From: Butyricimonas sp. Marseille-P3923 | GTDB taxonomy: Bacteria; Bacteroidota; Bacteroidia; Bacteroidales; Marinifilaceae | Assembly: GCF_900184685.1 (NCBI RefSeq) | Contig: NZ_FXXL01000006.1 | Span: forward strand, 868,001-932,000 | Length of the DNA stretch: 64,000 nt | Reading direction: 5' to 3' | Shown here: one piece after another, positions 32,405-43,732 of the stretch | Position numbering within the stretch: position 1 is the first letter of the stretch | Layout of the letters: each line of letters opens with the position of its first letter | Notes under the pieces: model-generated | Databases searched by the model: none | Seen by the model: only the letters and a program-made list of their open reading frames with translations | What the model was told of the DNA's origin: nothing | Program-made: the position numbers and the translations under genes

Positions 32405-32419
32405 CTTCCTATAAAAAAA

Positions 32420-32475
32420 CCACCTACTTTCGTAAGTGGCTTATCTTCGGTGACCTCGGTGGGACTCGAACCCAC
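32420..32475 (-). repeat. attL: duplicated tRNA-Lys 3' end plus terminator
   Basis: The block contains the tRNA T-arm/acceptor core (32446-32475) and, at 32420-32439, a hairpin CCACCTAC/GTAAGTGG identical to the one after the intact tRNA (43629-43648). Homology with attR thus covers about 56 bp with a few differences in the 6-bp spacer between hairpin and core. It cannot form a tRNA on its own. Confidence 0.88.
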
Positions 32476-32649: not shown

Positions 32650-33126
32650 TCAATCATTAATTTCTAGTTTATTAAAGTCAATAATCCATTTGTGCTTTTT
32701 GAGAAAGTTTGTTCCTAGTACCCCAGAAAACATCTTCTCTTTGGATGTGCAATAGGAGCATAGGCTTTGGTCAATGTAAAATAGTTCAGAATAAGTCTTT
32801 CCATTATATTCAAATTTGAGTATAGTAGATTCACATCCCATTATAACCCCATTTTTACATCTAACCTTCTTGATACCTTCTCTCTTCTGGAAAACATCTA
32901 TAAACAAGTACAAAGGGGCTTTTATGGGGGCTTCTGGAGAGGGAAAATTTAAATTCAACCACTCATGAGATTTAAGCCTTTCCTGTGAAGCTGGATATTC
33001 CTCGTGAAAGAAGTCAACAAAGCAAGGAGCAAGTAGATTGTACTTACAACTAGTATCCACCAAGAAAGTGAATCCTATACCCTTGACTTGAATTAATATC
33101 ATAGGTTGAGCCTTAAATTTTTCCAT
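32650..33126 (-). CDS. Retropepsin-like protein with altered active-site triad (DTS)
   Basis: A 158-residue protein of aspartic-protease-like beta fold: PMILIQVKGIGFTFLVDTSC at residues 8-27 is where retropepsin-like proteins have hydrophobic-hydrophobic-D-T/S-G-A. Here it reads DTSC, so the glycine is lost. Later GVLGTNFLKKHKWIIDFNKL matches the C-terminal psi-loop element (G-x-N/Q-F-x-x-x-x-x-W-x-I-D-F) also present in its neighbour. It overlaps the upstream gene by 14 bp, implying coupled translation. Stop codon TGA. Probably a binding-only or pseudo-protease partner. Confidence 0.65.
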   Translation of the reverse strand: MEKFKAQPMILIQVKGIGFTFLVDTSCKYNLLAPCFVDFFHEEYPASQERLKSHEWLNLNFPSPEAPIKAPLYLFIDVFQKREGIKKVRCKNGVIMGCESTILKFEYNGKTYSELFYIDQSLCSYCTSKEKMFSGVLGTNFLKKHKWIIDFNKLEIND

Positions 33127-33535
33127 TGCTTCTCACTTCAAGTTTTTCAAAATCTACAATCCATTTATTCTCTATAAAGAATTGTACTCCAAGTACTCCA
33201 TGAATTTGTATTCCAGTTTCTTCCTGCACTTGTTTAATAGCTTCAGAAGCATCCAATACAGAAAAAGTTGAAGTATAATCTTTTCCTTCAAAATTGAATG
33301 TGGCTTCAATGATAGGAGTTTCTTTGTAGTGTCCTTCTATTCCCATTGTTCTATATGTTCCCTCAAGCAGCTTTAACTCACTCTTGAAATGTTCATATAC
33401 AAAATCAAATAAGGTGTTATGAGTAGCACCAGTATCAATCAAAAAACAAAGGTTATTTGTTTTTCTTGACATCAATATCAGTGGTAAACCTGCTTTTTGT
33501 AGACCAAATGTTAGTGGAAATTCCATTTTTTTCAT
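33113..33535 (-). CDS. Retropepsin-like aspartic protease domain protein
   Basis: A 140-residue single-domain protein with LCFLIDTGATHNTLF: the D-T-G-A active-site signature is at residues 34-37. The C-terminal GVLGVQFFIENKWIVDFEKL mirrors that of the protein encoded just downstream. No signal peptide or membrane segment. Single-domain retropepsins need two subunits for one active site, so it may form a homodimer or pair with the DTS protein. Stop codon TAA. Found inside the integrated element; its substrate is unknown. Confidence 0.72.
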   Translation of the reverse strand: MKKMEFPLTFGLQKAGLPLILMSRKTNNLCFLIDTGATHNTLFDFVYEHFKSELKLLEGTYRTMGIEGHYKETPIIEATFNFEGKDYTSTFSVLDASEAIKQVQEETGIQIHGVLGVQFFIENKWIVDFEKLEVRSNGKI

Positions 33536-33541
33536 TTATAA

Positions 33542-34432
33542 TTAATCATTGTTCCATCTTGCATCTAAATCACCCTCATAAGCATCAGATAATCCACTTT
33601 CTATATCTTCTCTACTCCAACCATCATAATAAGCTTGCTCATCTCCATAAGGGTCACTCCAATTATCCACATCATTCATCCTCTCTTCTTCATAATCCCC
33701 AAAAGAAGTTCTGTGGGAATATATTTTTGGAGAAACTTTTTTAGGAATCACCTTAGCAATAGGCAATGTTGTTTTTCCTATGTCTGACTTTTCCATCAGT
33801 AAAGGGAATATCTTACCACTACTATTTACAACAATGGCTATTACAGGCTCTTTAGGAATCCCTGTTACTGCTACAAATCCTATATTACACCCATAGGTGA
33901 AAAGTACTTGATTTATATTGGAGAATGCTTTAACGTATAATGCTTCACAATTTGTCAATTGTTTGAATGCTTCCACTGAATAGGTATTGATATAGGTTAA
34001 TCCATCAAAGATGACCTTATTTGTTAATTTATAAAGGTTTAGTTTCTCTTCTTTATCACCAATAAATGCCTTGATGGAAAAAAGATATTTTTCTTTTATT
34101 GCCCATATCCTATCATATTTGAATGGAACAACAATATTACCTAATGTATCTATGATTCCCCATTTATTATTTCCTTCTAAATAATGGTATTCTGTTACAC
34201 GGGTAAAACCACAAGTAAACTGCGGGTCACACCAAGAATATCTCCCAAATGGTACAATTTGCTTATTCATATAATTGATGTAAGCATATTGATATTGAGA
34301 GTTTCTAACTAATGCCAAACCACAACTGAATGGCTGAATCTCTTTATATTGAGGAGGTATGACAATTTCACCCACTTGGTTCTTTACTCCAAACAAGTCC
34401 TCTTCTTGGAAAATGTGCAAGTTATTATCCAT
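33542..34432 (-). CDS. WG-repeat protein
   Basis: About 296 residues from ATG 34432; the frame is open to 34513 but that extension looks noncoding. WG-type repeats are visible, for example FGVKNQVGEIVIPPQYKEIQ and NKWGIIDTLGNIVVPFKYDR, each of the form W/F-G-x-x-(D/N)-x-x-G-x-x-(I/V)-x-P-x-x-(Y/F). The C-terminal 60 residues are acidic and low-complexity (DDVDNWSDPYGDEQAYYDGW). The family is widespread and generally of unknown function. It heads a three-gene run with the two retropepsin-like genes (6-bp gap to the next). Stop codon TAA. Confidence 0.75.
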   Translation of the reverse strand: MDNNLHIFQEEDLFGVKNQVGEIVIPPQYKEIQPFSCGLALVRNSQYQYAYINYMNKQIVPFGRYSWCDPQFTCGFTRVTEYHYLEGNNKWGIIDTLGNIVVPFKYDRIWAIKEKYLFSIKAFIGDKEEKLNLYKLTNKVIFDGLTYINTYSVEAFKQLTNCEALYVKAFSNINQVLFTYGCNIGFVAVTGIPKEPVIAIVVNSSGKIFPLLMEKSDIGKTTLPIAKVIPKKVSPKIYSHRTSFGDYEEERMNDVDNWSDPYGDEQAYYDGWSREDIESGLSDAYEGDLDARWNND

Positions 34433-34739
34433 CTGATACTCTTTTTGTAGCCATAGCACAAAAAGAAGGTGTGAGCCAAGCCTCAATTGCAAGTCCAAGG
34501 TATTACCACACACCTATAATCACACAATATAAGGGAAGCCCACACCATATGGTATGAGTATCCACTACTTACTGTTGTGATTATTAGTCTTCAAGGTGGT
34601 AATTTTAGGACTATCACGAGTAAGAAGCAAACACTTCTTTTTCTAGTATGTCTTGATTAAACTTCTATTTCATTAGCAATCATTTAACTGTTACTACCGC
34701 AAAGTTATGACTTTTCAGCAATAAACAATCATTTAAAAG

Positions 34740-34895
34740 CTATTTTAGAAGGTTTTCAATCCATGCTAGTACCACGGGCATGAGCTTGTATCCTTGTTTG
34801 TGTTCAATACACTCCAGAAGAGGAAAGAAGTACTTCAATCCTTCATTCTTGATGGCAAATGTACCACATTTCTATCATTTGTCCCTGATTCTCAT
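34740..34895 (-). pseudogene. Broken small gene of about 51 codons with adjacent TGA-TAG
   Basis: From ATG 34893-34895 the frame reads MRIRDK, then TGA TAG at 34872-34877, then 43 protein-like codons (KCGTFAIKNEGLKYFFPLLE, then CIEHKQGYKLMPVVLAWIEN) before TAG at 34740. If TGA arose from TGG and TAG from CAG, the original was RDKWQKCGTF. The compact, well-mixed sequence suggests former or recoded coding function. No homologue is recalled with certainty. Confidence 0.4.
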
Positions 34896-34910
34896 ATCAA
34901 TTCAATTTAA

Positions 34911-34939
34911 AAGCCCCAATCTTTACCAGAAAGGGGCTT
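34911..34939 (-). terminator. Terminator hairpin inside the element
   Basis: AAGCCCC and GGGGCTT pair around a 15-base loop; on the minus strand the stem is followed by TTAAATT. It would end transcription coming from the DUF3871 gene. Confidence 0.55.
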
Positions 34940-35417
34940 GAAACAACAATAAAAACAATCACACGAGGGATACCCTCATTCATTCTTCGCTATAACACAT
35001 ATCATTATTATCCAGATAATAACATGAACAATAGCCTCGATAATCATATTCATTAGACCATATTTATCTTGTACAACTTTAAGCCTGTTATTTAAAAGCT
35101 ACTCCAGAATAGGGTATTGTTAATAAACAGGGATACATCACCCCTTCTAGGCTCTATAAACCACCTTCAATGCGTAATCACGTCTTTTAATTCCAGTGAC
35201 AGGTTGTATTCACTTCTCCTTTATTAGACAATGGAAGTGAATACATGGCTCACTTTAATGATACAATGTATTATTATATACCCAAGTGAGCAATGTCGAA
35301 TTTTTCCAGTTTAACCTTATACGGTGTAACATCAATTTTTTCGACACTATAAAATTTCCCATCATAATGGATAAAATGTAACTGGTAGTTCCAGAAGTTG
35401 AGTTATGGTGAAGAGAG

Positions 35418-36482
35418 TTACTGGATAAACCATGAATACTCGTTTCTTTCATTTAGAGCCTTGTTTAGCCCTTCTGTCAATTGGGTGGCATTAAGAGCCC
35501 TATCAATGAAATTATCAATGTAGGATGACTTGTTAGCCCCTGTAAGAAGGTTGTAGACTCTCCACATGCTGATTTCCCTGTTACCTTCTTGAATGGCAAA
35601 GTTTTCATCATTGTAATATGCCTTGGCTACAAGTCCTATCTGGGTATCAGTCATAAGCATTGAAGGTAGCCTCTTCTTCTGTTCACTGGGTAGGAATTGA
35701 TACATCCTGCTCTTTCCCAAGAACTGTGCAAACTGGCTTTCAGTCATGTAACAATCCTTGTAAGTAGCCATGTTGTGAAGGTGTTGGGCTGCATTATACT
35801 CGTGAATTAGCCTTATTGTGGCATTAAACAGGTCTGCAACACTCGTCACCTTCAACTCTGACTTGTACCCGTCGGTTGAAACACACATGTTGCAGCAAAC
35901 CATGTTCTTGAAGCCAATAAACACCTTGAACTTCTCGATGCCCTTCTTGCTGTAAAGATTTTCATGATTGTAAGCCCTAACCCCTCCAACAGTGAGATTG
36001 AGCCTGTTGCCTTCTATATCCTCGTGAATGGAGGGGATTTGAATACAAAACATCATTCTTTCATAGTAGATGGTCTTGTCTTCTTCCAGCAAGTCTTTCA
36101 CTGGTTTGTGAATGGCATCCGGTGTTCTACCTTTAATAACATGGCTAACCCTGATGGAGGGTTCTTCAATCTCTTCCCTTGGAAATGCTTGATTGGCAGC
36201 TTTCCAGACAGTTTCAATGAAAGAAGGGTGAGAGATGGTCACTTCATTATCCTTGCTGAATACGGGCACCACGCAATCATTTTTCAAGTGTTGCATGGTG
36301 GCTTCTCTAGTGTTTGCCTCGATGAAAGGTAGTTGCCCCTCTATTAATATAGCATCTTCTGGAGTCCCTTTCATTATTCCAGTTTCAGGAGCAACAGGTG
36401 AAGTGCTTGCTCCAGAATTGTAGGTAGTGATGATGCTTGGATAAATATTAGTTCTGACGGGCTGTAATAGCATTGTTTCCAT
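35418..36482 (-). CDS. DUF3871-family protein
   Basis: A 354-residue cytoplasmic protein typical of Bacteroidota mobile elements. The first 50 residues are variable; then come PVFSKDNEVTISH, IRVSHVIKGRTPDAIHKPV, NRLNLTVGGVRAYNHENLYS and KVFIGFKNMVCCNMCVSTDG. The C-terminal MLMTDTQIGLVAKAYYND and LLTGANKSSYIDNFIDRALN are strongly family-like. Function is unknown; it usually travels with element replication genes. Its start overlaps the end of the ATPase gene by 35 bp, so the two are translated as a unit. Stop codon TAA. Confidence 0.85.
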   Translation of the reverse strand: METMLLQPVRTNIYPSIITTYNSGASTSPVAPETGIMKGTPEDAILIEGQLPFIEANTREATMQHLKNDCVVPVFSKDNEVTISHPSFIETVWKAANQAFPREEIEEPSIRVSHVIKGRTPDAIHKPVKDLLEEDKTIYYERMMFCIQIPSIHEDIEGNRLNLTVGGVRAYNHENLYSKKGIEKFKVFIGFKNMVCCNMCVSTDGYKSELKVTSVADLFNATIRLIHEYNAAQHLHNMATYKDCYMTESQFAQFLGKSRMYQFLPSEQKKRLPSMLMTDTQIGLVAKAYYNDENFAIQEGNREISMWRVYNLLTGANKSSYIDNFIDRALNATQLTEGLNKALNERNEYSWFIQ

Positions 36483-37341
36483 ATCTTGTAAAATTAGGTT
36501 GGTAATTGATACCGGGTTGTTTCATGGCTTCTTGTAGTTTGACTCTCCTCGTGGTGAAGTCACTTGATAATTGAATGTTCCATTCAGGGTAGGCATGGTA
36601 AATAGTGGTCAGTTCTTCAATGGTTCTGGCTTGGTTAATCTTGCTTTTAACTATCTCCATGCTTACCCCTTCATTGCACCAGTCTAAAATAGCCTGTCCT
36701 GTAGTGGGGGTAATGATAAACTCTGGTTTATTTACAAACAGTGCTGTTCTATCCTTTGATGCAATAACTTGATGCTTCATGTTGATATCAAACACTATGG
36801 TAAACTCGTAATCTATCCCATCTCTCATGACAGCTTTTAATCCTACCTTTTCAGGTACCATTTTACCATTCTTTTCACTCAAAACATAATCTTGTTTACA
36901 CCTCATGGTGCAAATAACATGGCTTCGAGATTGTAGAATCTTTTGCATGAAGGCATTGATTCTTGGAGTTACTTTCTGCCAGTTAGTGAATGAGTTACCT
37001 TGCAGGTTGGCATGGTATTCAAGCAAGTAATCCCAGCATTGAGAGATTGAGTCAATTATAATCACTTCTATCCCTGCATCTTCACACGCTTTTATAGCCT
37101 CAATATAAGTTTCTGGGGTGAAGTTTTCACTTAGATTCAATACATTATAAGTTCCCAAGTGAGCGTATAAATCAGCACTTCCATTTTCACTATCAATAAC
37201 TGCAATTTTAGTCCAGTCATTGCATAAGCCATAGGCTAATAGCAAGGCAGAATAGGTCTTTCCTGAGCCTGCACAGCCTTGAAGGGCAAGCTTTATCTTG
37301 GCTTGCTTCTTTGATGATACTCTTAAATTTAGCATATTCAA
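36448..37341 (-). CDS. RecA-like AAA ATPase (phage/element nucleotide-binding protein)
   Basis: A 297-residue P-loop NTPase with Walker A GCAGSGKT (22-29), a Walker B-like VIIIDSISQ, and a conserved CTMRCKQDYVL block. It resembles the AAA_24/phage nucleotide-binding proteins that act in recombination or replication of phages and plasmids. No signal or membrane segment. Upstream gene of DUF3871, overlapping it. Stop codon TAA. Confidence 0.8.
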   Translation of the reverse strand: MNMLNLRVSSKKQAKIKLALQGCAGSGKTYSALLLAYGLCNDWTKIAVIDSENGSADLYAHLGTYNVLNLSENFTPETYIEAIKACEDAGIEVIIIDSISQCWDYLLEYHANLQGNSFTNWQKVTPRINAFMQKILQSRSHVICTMRCKQDYVLSEKNGKMVPEKVGLKAVMRDGIDYEFTIVFDINMKHQVIASKDRTALFVNKPEFIITPTTGQAILDWCNEGVSMEIVKSKINQARTIEELTTIYHAYPEWNIQLSSDFTTRRVKLQEAMKQPGINYQPNFTRYGNNAITARQN

Positions 37342-37427: not shown

Positions 37428-37700
37428 TTACAAGGTAGTCAATGTAGTAGCCCCTCCTTCTCCTTTCTGGTGCAACAAGAAGAACATCTCTCCAGTTGTA
37501 GCGGAGCATACTTCAGAAATTACTGGTACTGTTAGTTCTCCTGTTTCTACCTTCCTTGAACAAGCACCAGTTTCAAAGCCATAGACAAAGAAACATTTGC
37601 CAGTGTGCTCATTCCTTTTCACTTCAATCTTTTCTACATTGTGGTGTGCTTTAAACTCTGCTACACTCATTGTTTTCACGAACTTTAAATCTCTTTCCAT
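37428..37700 (-). CDS. Small hypothetical protein of the element
   Basis: A 90-residue protein, KFVKTMSVAEFKAHHNVEKI at the start and two Cys and a His further on (TGKCFFVYG, ACSRK, VCSATTGEMFF). I recognise no family. It lies 86 bp upstream of the ATPase gene on the same strand and ends with TAA. Upstream, 37731-37760 has a G/C-rich hairpin-capable stretch (TCCCCA/TGGGGA). Confidence 0.6.
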   Translation of the reverse strand: MERDLKFVKTMSVAEFKAHHNVEKIEVKRNEHTGKCFFVYGFETGACSRKVETGELTVPVISEVCSATTGEMFFLLHQKGEGGATTLTTL

Positions 37701-37915: not shown

Positions 37916-39739
37916 TCAATACATGGTACTAAGAATCTCGTATCCTTTAGTTTTTATCCCGTCAATATATCTACTTGTATCATTAATATTGTACCAGTAT
38001 TTGAGGTCAGAACCTTTGGCAGTACTTGTGATTCCTACTTGCTTGTATATCTTTTCTAGGATAGCTTTTGCTTCTTTAGCTGGAATAAAATCTTTGCTTT
38101 CAAGTTCTTCCTTGAGAATGGGAAATACTTTATTCTTTAAGAGAATATTTTCACATTCAATTTTGAGTTTACTTTCCTTGAAGTTTAGAGCTTTAATTTT
38201 TGAAGCACCTAAAGTCGAGTAATACACCTCCAAACTAGGGTCAGCTGATCTCATTGATGCAATTATCAGCTTATCAGGCATGGAATTACTTTCTTTATGA
38301 AGACAATATTCTTCCATTTTTTCCTTGAATGAACCTTTAACTATCGCTTGTTTTAATTGTGTATCATATACTTTCCACTCTTGTTTACTTATAATCTTGA
38401 ATCCACTATCTTCCAGTTGTCTCTTTACCATAATACCATTTTCATATCCGTGTTTCTATACCTTGTAACAATACTCTTCATTTAACTTGGCTAAATCATT
38501 GAACCTAAATGTATCTGTATTGGAATCATACATGGTGTAAGACTTCGAGTACTTGTCAATTTTTTGTAATTTAACAATATCATCAATCTTTTTAGGTCTC
38601 AACAGGTGAGAAGCCTTGTTGCACTCTTCGATTTCCTCTTTTGTTAGATCAGTTTTTTTTCTCATGTACTATTCAAACGTTGTATCATCAATATCTTCAA
38701 TTCCAGTGTTGTATATGAAATACAATCTTTTTCTGAATGGATTACTTTCCAACCTTTGTCTTCCCGCTATTTGTACAAGATCAGTGCCTATATCAATGGT
38801 TGTATTCAATTTCCTGTTATCACTGATAACAAAAGTCGAAGCACATTCAGAGTAGAAATCACATCCTGCATAAGAGGTAGAAGTACAAAAGGTGAACATT
38901 TTGTGTTTTTCTCCTCTCAAGGGGATTCTACCCTTGTTAAACCCCTCTCCTAGTTCCTTTATTAACTTGTTATTATCTTCTGAAGCCCCGACAATGATGT
39001 TTACCTCCTCTGGTGATAACTCGCATTGTTTGATTATATTCAGAATGTTAGTAACAGAGTTTAAAAAGATGATGCATTCTTTTGAATATACTTGTTTCCC
39101 GTCAACAAGCAAGACAGGATAATCACCTCTTTTATACATTGAAACAATACCAACTCCAGCAGCCATAGGGGTAGGGGATTTTTCCCTGATAACTTCTACA
39201 GTTTCTTTTTCTTCCCATTTCAGTTGATAGTATACAACACCCTTTAATACATCTAGTTGTTCAATAAATTGGTCTAGTATTGGTGTTGCAGACAGGTAAG
39301 TAATGTGTGGATATTCCTTTAGGCTATCTAATAGCCTGAGGTTCACTTCTGACTTGAAAGAAGCATCTCCTAAAATGTAATGAAACTCATCCACCACCAC
39401 TCTCCATGGCTTCTTGTTAGGAATGCACTCCCCAATCTTCTAAAAAGAATCATAGGAAACAAGAATCTTTGGTATAGTAGCCTGCTTGATATAATCTTCA
39501 ATTTCTTTCTTGTGCACCCCTCCAATAACAAGCAAAGCATTAGGATATTGGGAGTTTTTGTTTTTTAATAGTTCATTCCTTGGGCTACAAATAATAGTGG
39601 GATGCTTGTCTGTTAATGCAATAGTGGTAGCACCACATCCAGTTACTTCTTTGTTAAGGATACCATTGGGTAATTCAAACCCTTCTATTTCACTGAGGTA
39701 CTTGATACCTTTTTTAATAGAAATAATTTTTTTCTACAT
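37916..39739 (-). CDS. Superfamily-2-type helicase gene with four in-frame TAG codons (recoded or decayed)
   Basis: Read from ATG 39737-39739, one frame runs 607 codons to TGA at 37916-37918. The only interruptions are TAG at codons 2, 100, 357 and 428 (39734-39736, 39440-39442, 38669-38671, 38456-38458); there is no TAA, no TGA and no indel. The conceptual protein has a Walker A-like EVTGCGATTIALTDK (residues 31-45), ICSPRN, LLVIGGV, then SYDSF-amber-KIGECIPNK and the DEAH-like VVVDEFHY, then THITYLSATPIL (motif III SAT) and QIAGRQRLESN near 340 (motif VI-like). Conventional gene callers would see three pieces: 38669-39400, 38456-38665 and 37916-38431. An ochre stop precedes the ATG, a promoter-like box lies at 39848, and a terminator follows the TGA. 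Amber decoded as an amino acid, possibly Gln, fits; inactivation by point mutation remains possible. Confidence 0.7.
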
Positions 39740-39757: not shown

Positions 39758-39817
39758 GGAACTTTTTTGCACTAAAAAACAAATTTATTAAAGGTGATCT
39801 CGGTAAAAAAAAGTTCC
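39758..39817. repeat. Inverted repeat upstream of the helicase gene
   Basis: GGAACTTTTTT (39758-39768) and AAAAAAGTTCC (39807-39817) are perfect 11-base inverted copies with a 38-base spacer. They lie between the promoter-like box and the ATG of the amber-containing gene, so in its leader RNA. Could be a protein-binding site or a leader structure. Confidence 0.5.
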
Positions 39818-39847
39818 ATCAAACTACCCATCACCTTAATTGATATA

Positions 39848-39863
39848 CAAATATACGCAAAAA
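39848..39863 (-). promoter_or_regulatory. Promoter box TTTTTGCGTATATTTG upstream of the helicase gene
   Basis: The minus strand holds TATATTTG (TAnnTTTG) within a 16-base sequence that recurs exactly upstream of the 710-residue gene (42080-42095). It lies 109 bp before ATG 39739. Confidence 0.5.
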
Positions 39864-39903
39864 AGATGAGATGTCCAAATTTATGGTATTAAAAATCAAT
39901 ACA

Positions 39904-42036
39904 TTAAAACATAAAATATTGAAGTAAGTCATTTTCGGATTTATTCAACCTGTTCTTGTGTGATGAGAATTTAGACTCTTTTAGGATTATGTATTCCTTC
40001 TTGGGTCTGGTGGTTTTGAAAAAACACCTGAATAAAGTGATAAGCTTTCTCCCTTTCTCTTTAAAGTCCTTATGGAGGTGGTAGTATATGATAGGCTGCA
40101 TTTTAGCTTCAATTTCCTCGTTTGTGTATTTATTGCCTACTTTGAAAGTTTCGTGAACAGATAACTTCAATGGGTGCTCTTCATCCAGAGCCCAGAATAC
40201 AACTGAATTATTGAGATTCTTGAAGCCTATATTATTACCACTTTTTAGCTCTTTCAATAGCTGGATGGCTTCCTCCATGTTGATATACTTGTACAGGGAG
40301 AGAACTTGCTTGTAAACTTTTCTTTGGGCACTATTCCCGTGGTAACTTTTCCTTGATAAAACTTTTTCATCTACTTGTTGGTTGTTATGTAGTTCCAGAA
40401 TCTCATCCAGTACTTTTACTCGTTCTTTCTGGGTTAGTTCTTTCTGTTGTTTCTTTTCTTCCTCCTCTATCTCTAGTTGTTTCTTTGGTTTCTCGTTTGT
40501 ATCATCAGGAATAGAGGTTACGTCATAATAGCTCTTTAATGCTGTTTCAAGAAATTTGGGTACTTTGTAGTGGTTTCTGTAAAGGTTAATTCTTAATAAC
40601 AAGTAGTCAAGATTCATATAAGCTACTTCCCACGTGTTTTCAATATTCTTTCTTACAAGGGACACCGGAGAGAACCTTCCTTGTAACCTTCCTGTAACCT
40701 TCTCCTTTATCACGTTTTGTACTATTGCAAATAGTTTGGTTAAGCTCTTATCACCATCACTTAATTCATCAGCCACGTTGAGTAGTTTAACAATTTTACT
40801 TCCTCTTTCAATCATCAATGCAATTTCATTAAGCCAAGTTTCTTTATAGTACATAGTGTTGTGAACTAGATGATTACTAAGTGTTTCTTCTTTGGTTAGA
40901 TTGATTATTTGCTTTAATGAAAAAAGGGTATTCCATTGTTTCGTGTCAGAAACAATAATCAAGTGAGCCTTTTCTGTTATCTCTTTCTTGAGTTTGTTAA
41001 AGCACCAAAAGATGATTCTTTTAGGAGAGCTTGGAGTTTCCCCTTCTTGTTCCACGTGGTATTTGCCTGCTTCTAATTGCTTGTTGGGAGAACATATGAT
41101 GCCACATTCTTTTTGATATCTCTCTTCTAAATTCAATATACATAATTTGGATTGTCTTACAGAGGGGTATATCAGGATAACCTTATCCTGAACGGGTAAT
41201 TTCTCTATGATAGTCTTAATTCTACCCGTGATATTCACGCAAGGATACAAGGTTACATTCTTGTGTAGAGGTTGTTGCCAGTGAATGATATGCCTTTTTT
41301 CTTCCTTCAAGAGGGGATGGGTGAATGCCAAATGATCTGTCGTGTAAATACATCTATTGGTAGGTGGAAACTTGATATAATAATCCAGAACTTCTGCATT
41401 CAATTGATTGCTAGTTGCTTGAAGTTCCTCCATGTTTCTAATCATGAAAAAATAATTGATTATTTCATCCTTGAGTAAAAATACTAATGTCTTTAAAGTG
41501 AATGATGAAATAATGAATTTTTTCCATTCTACATTGGCTTTATAACAGATAATTTCTTCTTTTATATTTCCGTGCAGACTATCTATACAAAGGCTACTCG
41601 TTGTCACTTGGGAATGTTGTAGGGCTTCTTCTGGTGTGGAGAATAGTATGATGGAGTTTCTTTGAGTGTGGAGTTCTAGGTAGGTTGCTCCTATATTGGG
41701 TACAGGGCACTCTATAATACCACAAGGAGTTTCATTTAATCTTTCAGATAAGTGAGAAGTGGTAGGGGTACATTCAATAACTATAGCCTCTTGTTCTTTT
41801 AGAATATTATCTGGAGTTTCCTGTTTTTCAATAGTATCTTGAATAATGATGTTATTACTGGATTCTATAGAGTATAATGTTTCTTCTTCATTAGAGAGAA
41901 TTATATCATTATTACTTGTGATGTTTTCTTCTTCTCTTAATGTATAAATAGTTGAACTCTCTTCTATGTCTTCTGGAGTAAGATCAAAAATATCACTATA
42001 TTGATAATCTGTATCATTAGTATCTATGTTTGTCAT
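39904..42036 (-). CDS. Large helicase-like protein with degenerate P-loop
   Basis: A 710-residue cytoplasmic protein. The first 100 residues are acidic and Ser/Thr/Glu-rich. From about residue 102, NETPCGIIECPVPNIGATYL followed by ELHTQRNSIILFSTPEEA lines up with the Walker A region of the helicase at 37916 (NKEVTGCGATTIALTDK, then PTIICSPRN), but the lysine-containing loop is absent. A Lys/Glu/Gln-rich coiled stretch lies near 530-560. No amber codons interrupt it and it ends with TAA. I infer a non-catalytic relative of the helicase, perhaps an origin or DNA-binding subunit; the similarity is confined to a short region. Confidence 0.6.
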   Translation of the reverse strand: MTNIDTNDTDYQYSDIFDLTPEDIEESSTIYTLREEENITSNNDIILSNEEETLYSIESSNNIIIQDTIEKQETPDNILKEQEAIVIECTPTTSHLSERLNETPCGIIECPVPNIGATYLELHTQRNSIILFSTPEEALQHSQVTTSSLCIDSLHGNIKEEIICYKANVEWKKFIISSFTLKTLVFLLKDEIINYFFMIRNMEELQATSNQLNAEVLDYYIKFPPTNRCIYTTDHLAFTHPLLKEEKRHIIHWQQPLHKNVTLYPCVNITGRIKTIIEKLPVQDKVILIYPSVRQSKLCILNLEERYQKECGIICSPNKQLEAGKYHVEQEGETPSSPKRIIFWCFNKLKKEITEKAHLIIVSDTKQWNTLFSLKQIINLTKEETLSNHLVHNTMYYKETWLNEIALMIERGSKIVKLLNVADELSDGDKSLTKLFAIVQNVIKEKVTGRLQGRFSPVSLVRKNIENTWEVAYMNLDYLLLRINLYRNHYKVPKFLETALKSYYDVTSIPDDTNEKPKKQLEIEEEEKKQQKELTQKERVKVLDEILELHNNQQVDEKVLSRKSYHGNSAQRKVYKQVLSLYKYINMEEAIQLLKELKSGNNIGFKNLNNSVVFWALDEEHPLKLSVHETFKVGNKYTNEEIEAKMQPIIYYHLHKDFKEKGRKLITLFRCFFKTTRPKKEYIILKESKFSSHKNRLNKSENDLLQYFMF

Positions 42037-42171: not shown

Positions 42172-43407
42172 CTATAATGGTTCCTTGTGCTCTTGTTTGC
42201 TCTCTAGTTGCTTGGATAGCTGGAGCATATGGTTGCTGACATTTTTGTTTACTACTTCGGCATAAGATTTTTGAGTGATACTAATATTAGCGTGTCCCAA
42301 CAATTTACTCACTATTTCGATAGGAACATTGTTATAGAGGAGGATAGTTGAAGCAAAGGTTTTTCTTGCCGTGTGATGCGTGAGTTTTTTCTTTATTCCC
42401 ACTATCTCGGCTATTTCCTTCAAGTAGCTGTTCATCTTTTGGTTGCTGATAGTTGGTAATATGTACCCTTGCTCTCCCGCTTGATGATACTTTTGGATGA
42501 TTTTTAATGCTTGTGGTAACAGGGGAATGTTAATCTCCCTTTGTGTTTTCAGTCTTATCATCTTTATCCATAGTTGATTATCAAACCCTTTTATGATATG
42601 TTCCTCTTTTAGCTCGAAAGCTTCATTGTAAGCCAGTCCAGTATACACGGAGAACATGTAATAATCCCTAACCCTTTCTAATCTCTCTTGAGCAAATTGG
42701 AAGTCTTCAAGAAGTTTTATTTCTTCCTCTGTTAGGTATATCAATTGCTTGACCTCTTTAAGAGGTTTATAGTTCCTGAAAGGGTATTTTGCACCATCAT
42801 AATTAACTCCTATCCAAACTATTTGACAAACTCTTTGAATGATTTTATTGATTGTTGCAGGTTTATGATTCTTATTGACAAGTAGATATTCCTGAAAACC
42901 TTGGATAAAGTCATTATTCAGGTGTGTAAAAGCAATATCTTTAATGTTATGAATTTCTATCAGATAATCAAGTGTATGTGCGAATACCTCTTTGAATTTT
43001 GTTAGAGTACCTTTGCTATAACTTTTACCTATCAGCTTCTCCATTGAATCAATCTTCTTTTTGAACACCTGTATGAGTGTGACTGCTGACTCTTGATTTG
43101 CACCAGTGAATTTGGAATAAATATCATGCAGCGTGTAGTTTTCTTTCTTCTCTACCATAAACAGTGCTTCAATGTCTAATAGCTTACTTTTGATACTATT
43201 GAGATGAAGGTTGATGGTTTCTGCTGTTGGAGATGAACCTTTAGCTTGTTGTTTGATTTTATTCCATTGGTTATGGATTAAATACATTCCAGTAGAGTAT
43301 TGCTGCCTTTCATTACCTATTGATATTCTACAATAAATAGGTGCTTCTCCTTTGATATTCATTTTTGAGGATAGTAAATAGAATGAAATCTTCAATTTTT
43401 GTATCAT
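42172..43407 (-). CDS. Tyrosine recombinase/integrase of the element
   Basis: A 411-residue tyrosine integrase of the Bacteroidota type: N-terminal arm-binding domain (about 1-95), SAM-like core-binding domain (about 105-205) and catalytic domain with Arg in YTGLAYNEAFELKEEH, HHTARKTFAS (H-x-x-R), LLGHANISITQKSYAEV (His and the likely nucleophile Tyr). In this subgroup the first catalytic Arg of TGLR is replaced, here TGLA. The gene lies 247 bp inside attR and reads away from it. It ends in TAG, the only normal gene end in the element using TAG; reading through would add 12 residues to a TGA inside the terminator stem. Confidence 0.93.
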   Translation of the reverse strand: MIQKLKISFYLLSSKMNIKGEAPIYCRISIGNERQQYSTGMYLIHNQWNKIKQQAKGSSPTAETINLHLNSIKSKLLDIEALFMVEKKENYTLHDIYSKFTGANQESAVTLIQVFKKKIDSMEKLIGKSYSKGTLTKFKEVFAHTLDYLIEIHNIKDIAFTHLNNDFIQGFQEYLLVNKNHKPATINKIIQRVCQIVWIGVNYDGAKYPFRNYKPLKEVKQLIYLTEEEIKLLEDFQFAQERLERVRDYYMFSVYTGLAYNEAFELKEEHIIKGFDNQLWIKMIRLKTQREINIPLLPQALKIIQKYHQAGEQGYILPTISNQKMNSYLKEIAEIVGIKKKLTHHTARKTFASTILLYNNVPIEIVSKLLGHANISITQKSYAEVVNKNVSNHMLQLSKQLESKQEHKEPL

Positions 43408-43490: not shown

Positions 43491-43628
43491 GATTGTGTAC
43501 CTAGCATATTCATATTTTATCTATTCTTAGAAGAAAGATGTTAAGAATTTATCAATAGACTAGATTAGCAATTAATCTTATATTATTGATTGTCAATGTA
43601 TTTAATAGATATGAGGATAAAAAGAAAA

Positions 43629-43684
43629 CCACCTACTTTCGTAAGTGGTTCATTTTCGGTGACCTCGGTGGGACTCGAACCCAC
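43629..43684 (-). repeat. attR with tRNA-Lys terminator
   Basis: The 30-bp core 43655-43684 is the 3' part of tRNA-Lys. Next to it CCACCTAC-TTTC-GTAAGTGG (43629-43648) forms, on the minus strand, a GAAA tetraloop hairpin followed by TTTTCTTTTT, a classic terminator for the tRNA. The same block is at attL. Confidence 0.88.
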
Positions 43685-43732
43685 GGCCCATTGATTAAGA
43701 GTCAATTGCTCTACCAGCTGAGCTACGAAGTC
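43660..43732 (-). tRNA. tRNA-Lys (anticodon CTT)
   Basis: On the minus strand all arms fold: acceptor GACTTCG with CGAGGTC, D-arm GCTCAGCTGGTAGAGC, anticodon stem ATTGA/TCAAT with loop CTCTTAA (anticodon CTT) and T-arm GTGGG-TTCGAGT-CCCAC. The discriminator is A; CCA is not encoded (ACCG follows). It lies 73 bp after yebC on the same strand and is the integration target of the element. Confidence 0.95.

Follow-up and report, generated by a model that had tools for sequence, protein, structure and literature searches.

A helicase gene interrupted only by TAG codons in a tRNA-integrated, satellite-like element of Butyricimonas

The window analysed here is a stretch of 64,000 nucleotides from Butyricimonas sp. 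Marseille-P3923 (contig NZ_FXXL01000006.1, positions 868,001 to 932,000). It contains an element integrated at a tRNA-Lys gene, and this element carries a helicase-like gene that is open on the minus strand over 607 codons, from ATG 39739 to TGA 37916, except for four TAG codons. Retranslation agrees with the initial annotation, which had described a single frame with TAG as its only internal stop type, at codons 2, 100, 357 and 428. No indel, TAA or TGA interrupts the frame, as had also been claimed, and a frameshift was rejected on this ground as the cause of the interruption. The helicase motifs were said to carry on past the breaks, and in the translation Walker-A-like, DEFH, SATP and QIAGRQR motifs do so. 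The helicase gene and its TAG codons are as follows.

37916..39739, minus strand: SF2-type (superfamily 2) helicase gene, ends in TGA (translation, homologues, fold of a standard-coded homologue)
39734..39736, minus strand: TAG codon 2; homologues have I, N, E, F, K, R, V, V, V, K, R (alignment, 11 rows)
39440..39442, minus strand: TAG codon 100; homologues have Y, F, K, H, H, G, P, P, P, G, P (alignment, 11 rows)
38669..38671, minus strand: TAG codon 357; homologues have K, A, N, E, D, E, A, A, A, S, K (alignment, 11 rows)
38456..38458, minus strand: TAG codon 428; Gln in 9 of 11 aligned rows (alignment)

One-step nonsense mutation of this gene is expected to yield TAA in 50-58% of cases, TAG in 23-29% and TGA in 19-21%, in line with the earlier statement that random decay should favour TAA. 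Four TAGs out of four would then be expected by chance in about 0.3-0.7% of cases, a figure that is not corrected for the choice of the gene as an odd-looking one.

The helicase pieces of the window gave no good match in Pfam or PHROG. Intact homologues tested against the same two collections gave no match, and a PDB sequence search returned nothing convincing. A profile of 15 intact homologues has invariant residues at the Walker-A-like, DE, ATP and QxxGRxR positions. One standard-coded homologue (L002) was modelled from a 23-row alignment, with a predicted local distance difference test score (pLDDT) of 78.9 and a predicted template modelling score (pTM) of 0.64. Comparison of this model with known structures using Foldseek gave matches to SF2 helicases (E 3e-10 to 3e-9 for the ten best), with the origin-binding protein of herpes simplex virus 1 (HSV-1) at rank 7. 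The likeness to SF2 helicases, including the HSV-1 protein, thus lies in the match of the homologue model and in the QxxGRxR motif; the differences are TM-scores that are low when taken by query length (about 0.2-0.4) and the missing Pfam or PHROG match of intact homologues. With the fold checked on L002 and the window copy judged by its motifs, the window gene is predicted to be an SF2 helicase.

Two further copies of the gene have internal stops that are exclusively TAG. The copy of Bacteroides salyersiae (L001:8701-10533) has three of three internal stops TAG and a terminal TAA; the copy at L275:14563-16401 also has three of three, one of them two codons past an ATG, and ends in TGA. In B. 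salyersiae, the TAG at codon 323 replaces the motif-VI Gln of TDLVQIAGRQR. All 11 other rows have Gln at this residue, which is also invariant in two wider alignments (A1, 15 rows; A3, 23 rows). At codon 503 of the same copy, the column contains Gln only in L012, L002 and L015. TAG stands at a conserved Gln site at codon 323 of B. salyersiae and codon 428 of the window, partly so at B. salyersiae codon 503, and not at window codons 2, 100 and 357 or B. salyersiae codon 176. The TAG positions are not the same in the window and B. salyersiae copies. In the tree, as read by eye from its printed form, the window, L001 and L275 copies are separate branches amid standard-coded relatives, with weak support at the L001/L012 fork (85/37). 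The one-step share of TAG is 0.23-0.29 for the window, 0.45-0.47 for L001 and 0.33-0.36 for L275. Ten TAGs out of ten over the three lineages would have a probability of about 3e-5 at most, if events are independent, with the highest TAG shares and without correction for the mode of discovery. Finally, TAG and CAG exchange at one codon of a stand-alone helicase-C-terminal-like gene in two elements that are about 97% identical (L276, L277).

Such stand-alone C-terminal-like genes, of about 70-90 codons and with an in-frame TAG, were seen at L276:16493-16756, L277:3691-3972, L279:6181-6393 and L280:9725-9937. They adjoin a gene that by eye resembles a winged-helix protein.

A second group of relatives carries internal TGA codons. 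In family f113, 16 copies from 14 genomes have TGA internal stops; in three of them the gene is broken up over different frames, while the other 13 are unbroken. The 13 unbroken copies form one clade (99/97) nested in standard-coded sequences. They contain 49 internal TGA (a count that may include two codons, in L113 and L114, upstream of the true start), 13 TGG and no other internal stop type. By comparison, the best-aligned stretches of the neighbouring genes of the f113 elements (integrase, 11 copies; 282-aa family, 8; 170-aa family, 9; 98-aa family, 12) hold 147 TGG and no TGA, TAG or TAA; the copies are related, and a Fisher test of this contrast takes them as independent. A column that is invariably Trp in the intact rows (nine of nine) has TGA in 13 of 13 elements and in two of two phage contigs. 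At a C-terminal column with Trp in seven of nine intact rows, the 15 recoded rows have 12 TGA, one Trp and two gaps. Over these 15 rows, 31 of the 56 TGA cells are in columns with Trp in intact rows, 15 of them at the invariant Trp.

The ratio of nonsynonymous to synonymous substitution rates (dN/dS) was computed by the Nei-Gojobori method with stop columns removed. For the three closest pairs of the TGA clade, it is 0.03-0.11 before the central TGA, 0.08-0.13 from the central to the last TGA and, over the 27-29 codons that remain, 0.09-0.22; pairs further apart are mostly saturated. Purifying selection past the stops was thus observed, in the TGA clade only, and we conclude that these genes are maintained with their stops. 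The window gene would presumably work as these relatives do, in which a single stop type is confined to one gene, selection extends beyond the stops and TGA occupies an invariant Trp position. The first stop lies at codons 2-5 in seven of 16 recoded copies. A Poisson estimate had counted nine such copies as independent, but in two of them, L113 and L114, the stop possibly precedes the real start codon. In five of the remaining seven it occupies the same alignment column, leaving about three independent events. This early placement hints at a lock. Among the TGA-element integrases listed, five of eight end in TGA. Both ends of four TGA elements (L220, L221, L222 and L227) bear a tRNA, the two sharing their anticodon and lying 9.3-10.3 kb apart, and L223 has two tRNA-Pro with different anticodons; no paired end tRNAs were seen in the stretch examined of the other eight.

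In the window, the element measures 11.2 kb and is flanked by a 63-nt direct repeat (94% identical, spacing 11209), one copy of which overlaps the tRNA-Lys gene. The attachment (att) repeat at the tRNA gene and the element's own integrase bear out the earlier description of a small tRNA-integrated element. Its features, together with one promoter-like box, are listed below.

43658..43732, minus strand: tRNA-Lys (CTT), integration site (ARAGORN; Rfam)
43622..43684, no strand: att repeat, tRNA side (63-nt direct repeat, 94% identical to 32413-32475)
42172..43407, minus strand: tyrosine integrase, standard code, ends in TAG (Pfam Phage_integrase 3.6e-19, Arm-DNA-bind_5, SAM_5)
39904..42036, minus strand: 710-aa gene, no internal stop (open reading frame, ORF; weak PHROG match only, E 0.045)
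39848..39855, minus strand: promoter-like box TATATTTG, one of three TAnnTTTG in 39780-39883 (consensus match only)
37428..37700, minus strand: 90-aa gene, standard code (ORF)
36448..37341, minus strand: AAA_24 ATPase, Sak4-like, standard code (Pfam 6.4e-21; phrog_1366 1.6e-75; phrog_124 1.4e-10)
35418..36482, minus strand: DUF3871 gene (Pfam)
33542..34513, minus strand: WG-repeat gene, cargo (Pfam 1.2e-20)
32650..33535, minus strand: two small genes resembling aspartyl proteases by eye, cargo (ORFs)
32413..32475, no strand: att repeat at the far element end (direct repeat)

Apart from the helicase gene, every gene of the element can be translated without interruption in the standard code; the integrase of the same element terminates with TAG. 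A reassignment of the whole code of the element, one option raised by the initial annotation, is thus not what is seen: only the helicase is affected. The 710-aa gene has no match among Pfam and PADLOC families. No virion genes were recognised in the element. Site-specific integration by an integrase of its own, as judged from the anatomy only, fits a trait of phage satellites. A DUF3871 gene also adjoins the B. salyersiae helicase gene.

The signals proposed around the helicase gene stood in part. Close to the gene on its upstream side, its strand does carry three TAnnTTTG boxes (39780-39787, 39848-39855 and 39876-39883), but the pattern occurs 52 times in the whole window against 56 expected, so it is not enriched. 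An inverted repeat, AATCCCC...GGGGGATT, starts about 8 bp past the TGA where a terminator had been placed, but it is weak: no T run follows it and the terminator scan lists nothing on that strand. Three minor observations concern the element as a whole. About 0.7 kb (34520-35250) lack an evident gene. A motif like TTCTGGAGT is apparently repeated, by eye, near 34820, 35100, 37410 and 37800. WG-repeat cargo occurs in both element types (33542-34513 in the window TAG element; L220:12241-13335 in a TGA element).

The cargo around the helicase gene is variable. This fact, and the point that a lock alone is silent on what the helicase does, could suit a protein of defence or interference that is triggered by a recoded phage through the same code lock and has no part in replication. 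We regard this alternative as improbable, a little more so than the decay of the window copy weighed below. PADLOC models match none of L012, L017 and six neighbouring proteins, and the standard-coded homologue L012 sits together with an integrase in a 5.2-kb record. This record (MT838459) may stem from a study of virus particles (PMC8361208), in the text of which no MT83 accession was found.

We then consider who could read the code. The genome that holds the window yielded no CTA tRNA by ARAGORN and a tRNA search in which 150 of 241 first-look candidates were scored: all 54 hits have standard anticodons. The earlier suggestion of suppression by a host tRNA gained no support from this. Within the reach of that search, and given the TAG that ends the integrase, constitutive reassignment by the host was rejected. 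In B. salyersiae, with 150 of 289 first-look candidates scored, none of the 66 hits is a CTA tRNA and all have standard anticodons. In G410, a host of a TGA element, no TCA tRNA is present in the 42 of 44 hits read; of the remaining two, one is weak and without a tRNA and the other lies at a contig end. The anticodons were also looked for by pattern, TCA in two phage contigs and 14 genomes of the TGA clade, CTA in one contig and five genomes. The hits were either tRNA-Arg(TCT) or sequence in which no tRNA was recognised. No suppressor tRNA was found in the window element, its tRNA-Lys being the sole tRNA seen by Rfam and ARAGORN. Since no matching suppressor tRNA was found, the reader is probably external or unlike a normal tRNA.

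Some stop-codon readthrough always occurs, and the absence of any suppressor tRNA in these searches would also agree with low-level readthrough by host tRNAs, sufficient without an outside factor. We consider this very unlikely and the least probable of the explanations: serial stops would multiply the loss, the base following TGA varies (C 17, T 16, A 12, G 4) and the neighbouring genes counted hold no internal stop.

Phages with altered codes do hold the helicase family. Among 43 viral-contig loci, the best aligned stretch is free of stops in 39; TGA is found in L151, L171 and L187 and a single TAG in L159. Two phage contigs, L187 (177 kb) and L171 (20 kb), have TGA in many long frames around the helicase-family gene, and in the neighbourhood of L159 several long frames appear only when TAG is read as sense. 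One could imagine that a recoded phage was the source of the gene and that its stops are leftovers without a present role. This is quite unlikely in our view: in the tree, the TGA elements branch separately from the TGA phages; the TGA clade shows purifying selection all along the frame; and the TAG sites of the window and B. salyersiae differ. TAG read as Gln (code 15) is demonstrated by proteomics in two crAss-like phages (PMC9523058). According to PMC11210395, a suppressor tRNA with anticodon CTA (Sup-CTA) is found in 375 of 715 predicted code-15 phages, and the corresponding Sup-TCA in 11 of 73 predicted code-4 phages. Given these shares, the lack of a suppressor tRNA in L187 and L171 is not decisive.

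We propose that the window gene encodes a working SF2 helicase of a satellite-like, tRNA-integrated element of about 11 kb, written in a code that neither the element nor the host reads. The key would come from elsewhere, a recoded phage being the best candidate. As long as the chromosome is quiet, translation would halt at the TAG of codon 2 and no helicase would be made. An infecting recoded phage with a suppressor tRNA would be the likeliest supplier of suppression. Suppression of one stop, TAG as Gln here and TGA as Trp in the sister clade, would then give a full-length helicase, a step to which the selection in the TGA clade lends support. Once the helicase is made, the element would replicate and may exit with the phage. 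The stop type varies by host lineage, as expected if elements track the code of the phages that they meet. More tentatively, and at slightly less than even odds, a class of tRNA-integrated, satellite-like elements of Bacteroidales may use the genetic code as a sensor, their helicase being written in the code of recoded phages (TAG=Gln or TGA=Trp) and waking only on such a phage. Bacteroidales as the order of the hosts was judged from B. salyersiae.

For the window gene, we put the probability of this proposal at about 0.6. This value takes into account that 25 of the 56 TGA cells are in columns where all nine intact rows lack Trp, Tyr or Phe standing in some of these columns instead. Several other facts weigh against the proposal. 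The majority of the inspected homologues are standard-coded, including L012, which is 61% identical in the longest piece. The columns at window codons 2, 100 and 357 are variable, with Gln in none of 11 homologue rows, and the TAG at B. salyersiae codon 176 is also at a variable column, with Gln in no other row. The searches yielded no close relative of the window copy with which dN/dS past its own TAGs could be computed. Three of the 16 TGA copies (L229, L230 and L231) are frameshifted and one of these three, in G844, also has two TAA; decay of such elements therefore occurs. On the side of the reader, no helper phage was identified, no TCA tRNA was found among nine tRNA hits in L187 and four in L171, and the TGA phages branch apart from the TGA elements in the tree. 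The role of the helicase in replication of the element is likewise something that we infer.

The variable, non-Gln residues at three of the four TAG sites are what the initial annotation had named as evidence against its reading of TAG as Gln. That reading is supported at codon 428 and, in relatives, at B. salyersiae codon 323 and by the TAG/CAG exchange; at the three other sites it is not. Together with the intact relative L012 and the decayed TGA copies, these sites would also fit a window copy that is simply a decaying pseudogene, with four nonsense mutations that are all TAG by chance. We judge this unlikely, although it is the most credible of the alternatives. TAA is the expected stop in decay, the frame has no indel, all ten stops in three separate lineages are TAG, and the TGA clade keeps the same gene under selection despite its internal stops. 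Decoding rather than decay, which the initial annotation had named as an alternative, is favoured by the TAGs at Gln columns and by the exchange with CAG.

Stop-codon recoding in phages is already known, and its purpose is debated. TAG-recoded (code 15) crAss-like phages resemble the present case in reading TAG as Gln in genes of mobile DNA. They are unlike it in that many genes are affected and Sup-CTA is often present, whereas here one gene of a small element is concerned and no such tRNA was found. TGA-recoded (code 4) phages share with the f113 elements TGA at Trp positions and a rare Sup-TCA tRNA (11 of 73); the f113 elements differ in being affected in the helicase only. Neither the window element nor the TGA elements thus use one stop as sense across many genes, as a recoded genome does. 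Recoding has been viewed as a device that times the late genes of phages (Borges et al. 2022, cited by PMC11210395), and suppressor tRNAs with theta ribozymes are proposed to act in it (PMC10879173). Here too a code switch would govern when a gene is translated, but the switch would come from another genome, the code being a signal between elements.

Phage satellites such as phage-inducible chromosomal islands (PICI) and P4-like elements are about 10 kb long and tRNA-integrated, with a tyrosine integrase and no virion genes, and known satellites sense their helpers through proteins. The window element is similar in size (~10 kb), tRNA integration, tyrosine integrase and lack of recognised virion genes. 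It would differ in the sensing, if it does depend on a helper. Searches of an open-licence collection of papers listed no report of such a gene in an integrated element. If the proposal is true, phage recoding is sensed and exploited by other elements, which would be one reason for phages to change their code. Genes in ordinary bacterial genomes, and not only in phages, may also be missed or called pseudogenes when one gene uses another code.

The search for relatives gave no match in plasmids, and scans of viral contigs with L012, a piece of L222 and the last helicase piece of the window gave no relatives. Single TAA or TGA listed for G1389, G1378, G1437, G1157 and G1349 were counted as terminal, because the aligned stretch is stop-free; single stops listed for G1087, G410:C3, G1203:C13 and G1280 were left out of the inspected set. 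Genomes with a homologue number 4 of 56 in the family of the window, 11 of 393 in its order and 7 of 395 in its class (own genome included each time). In other families, they number 36 of 268 in f113 and 62 of 399 in f60, which was taken as the family of B. salyersiae through a control protein 87% identical. Among 30 f60 loci inspected, stops in the tblastn-aligned stretch occur only in B. salyersiae (L245, the same gene as L001). One partial alignment, L267, shows TAGs once the whole frame is inspected.
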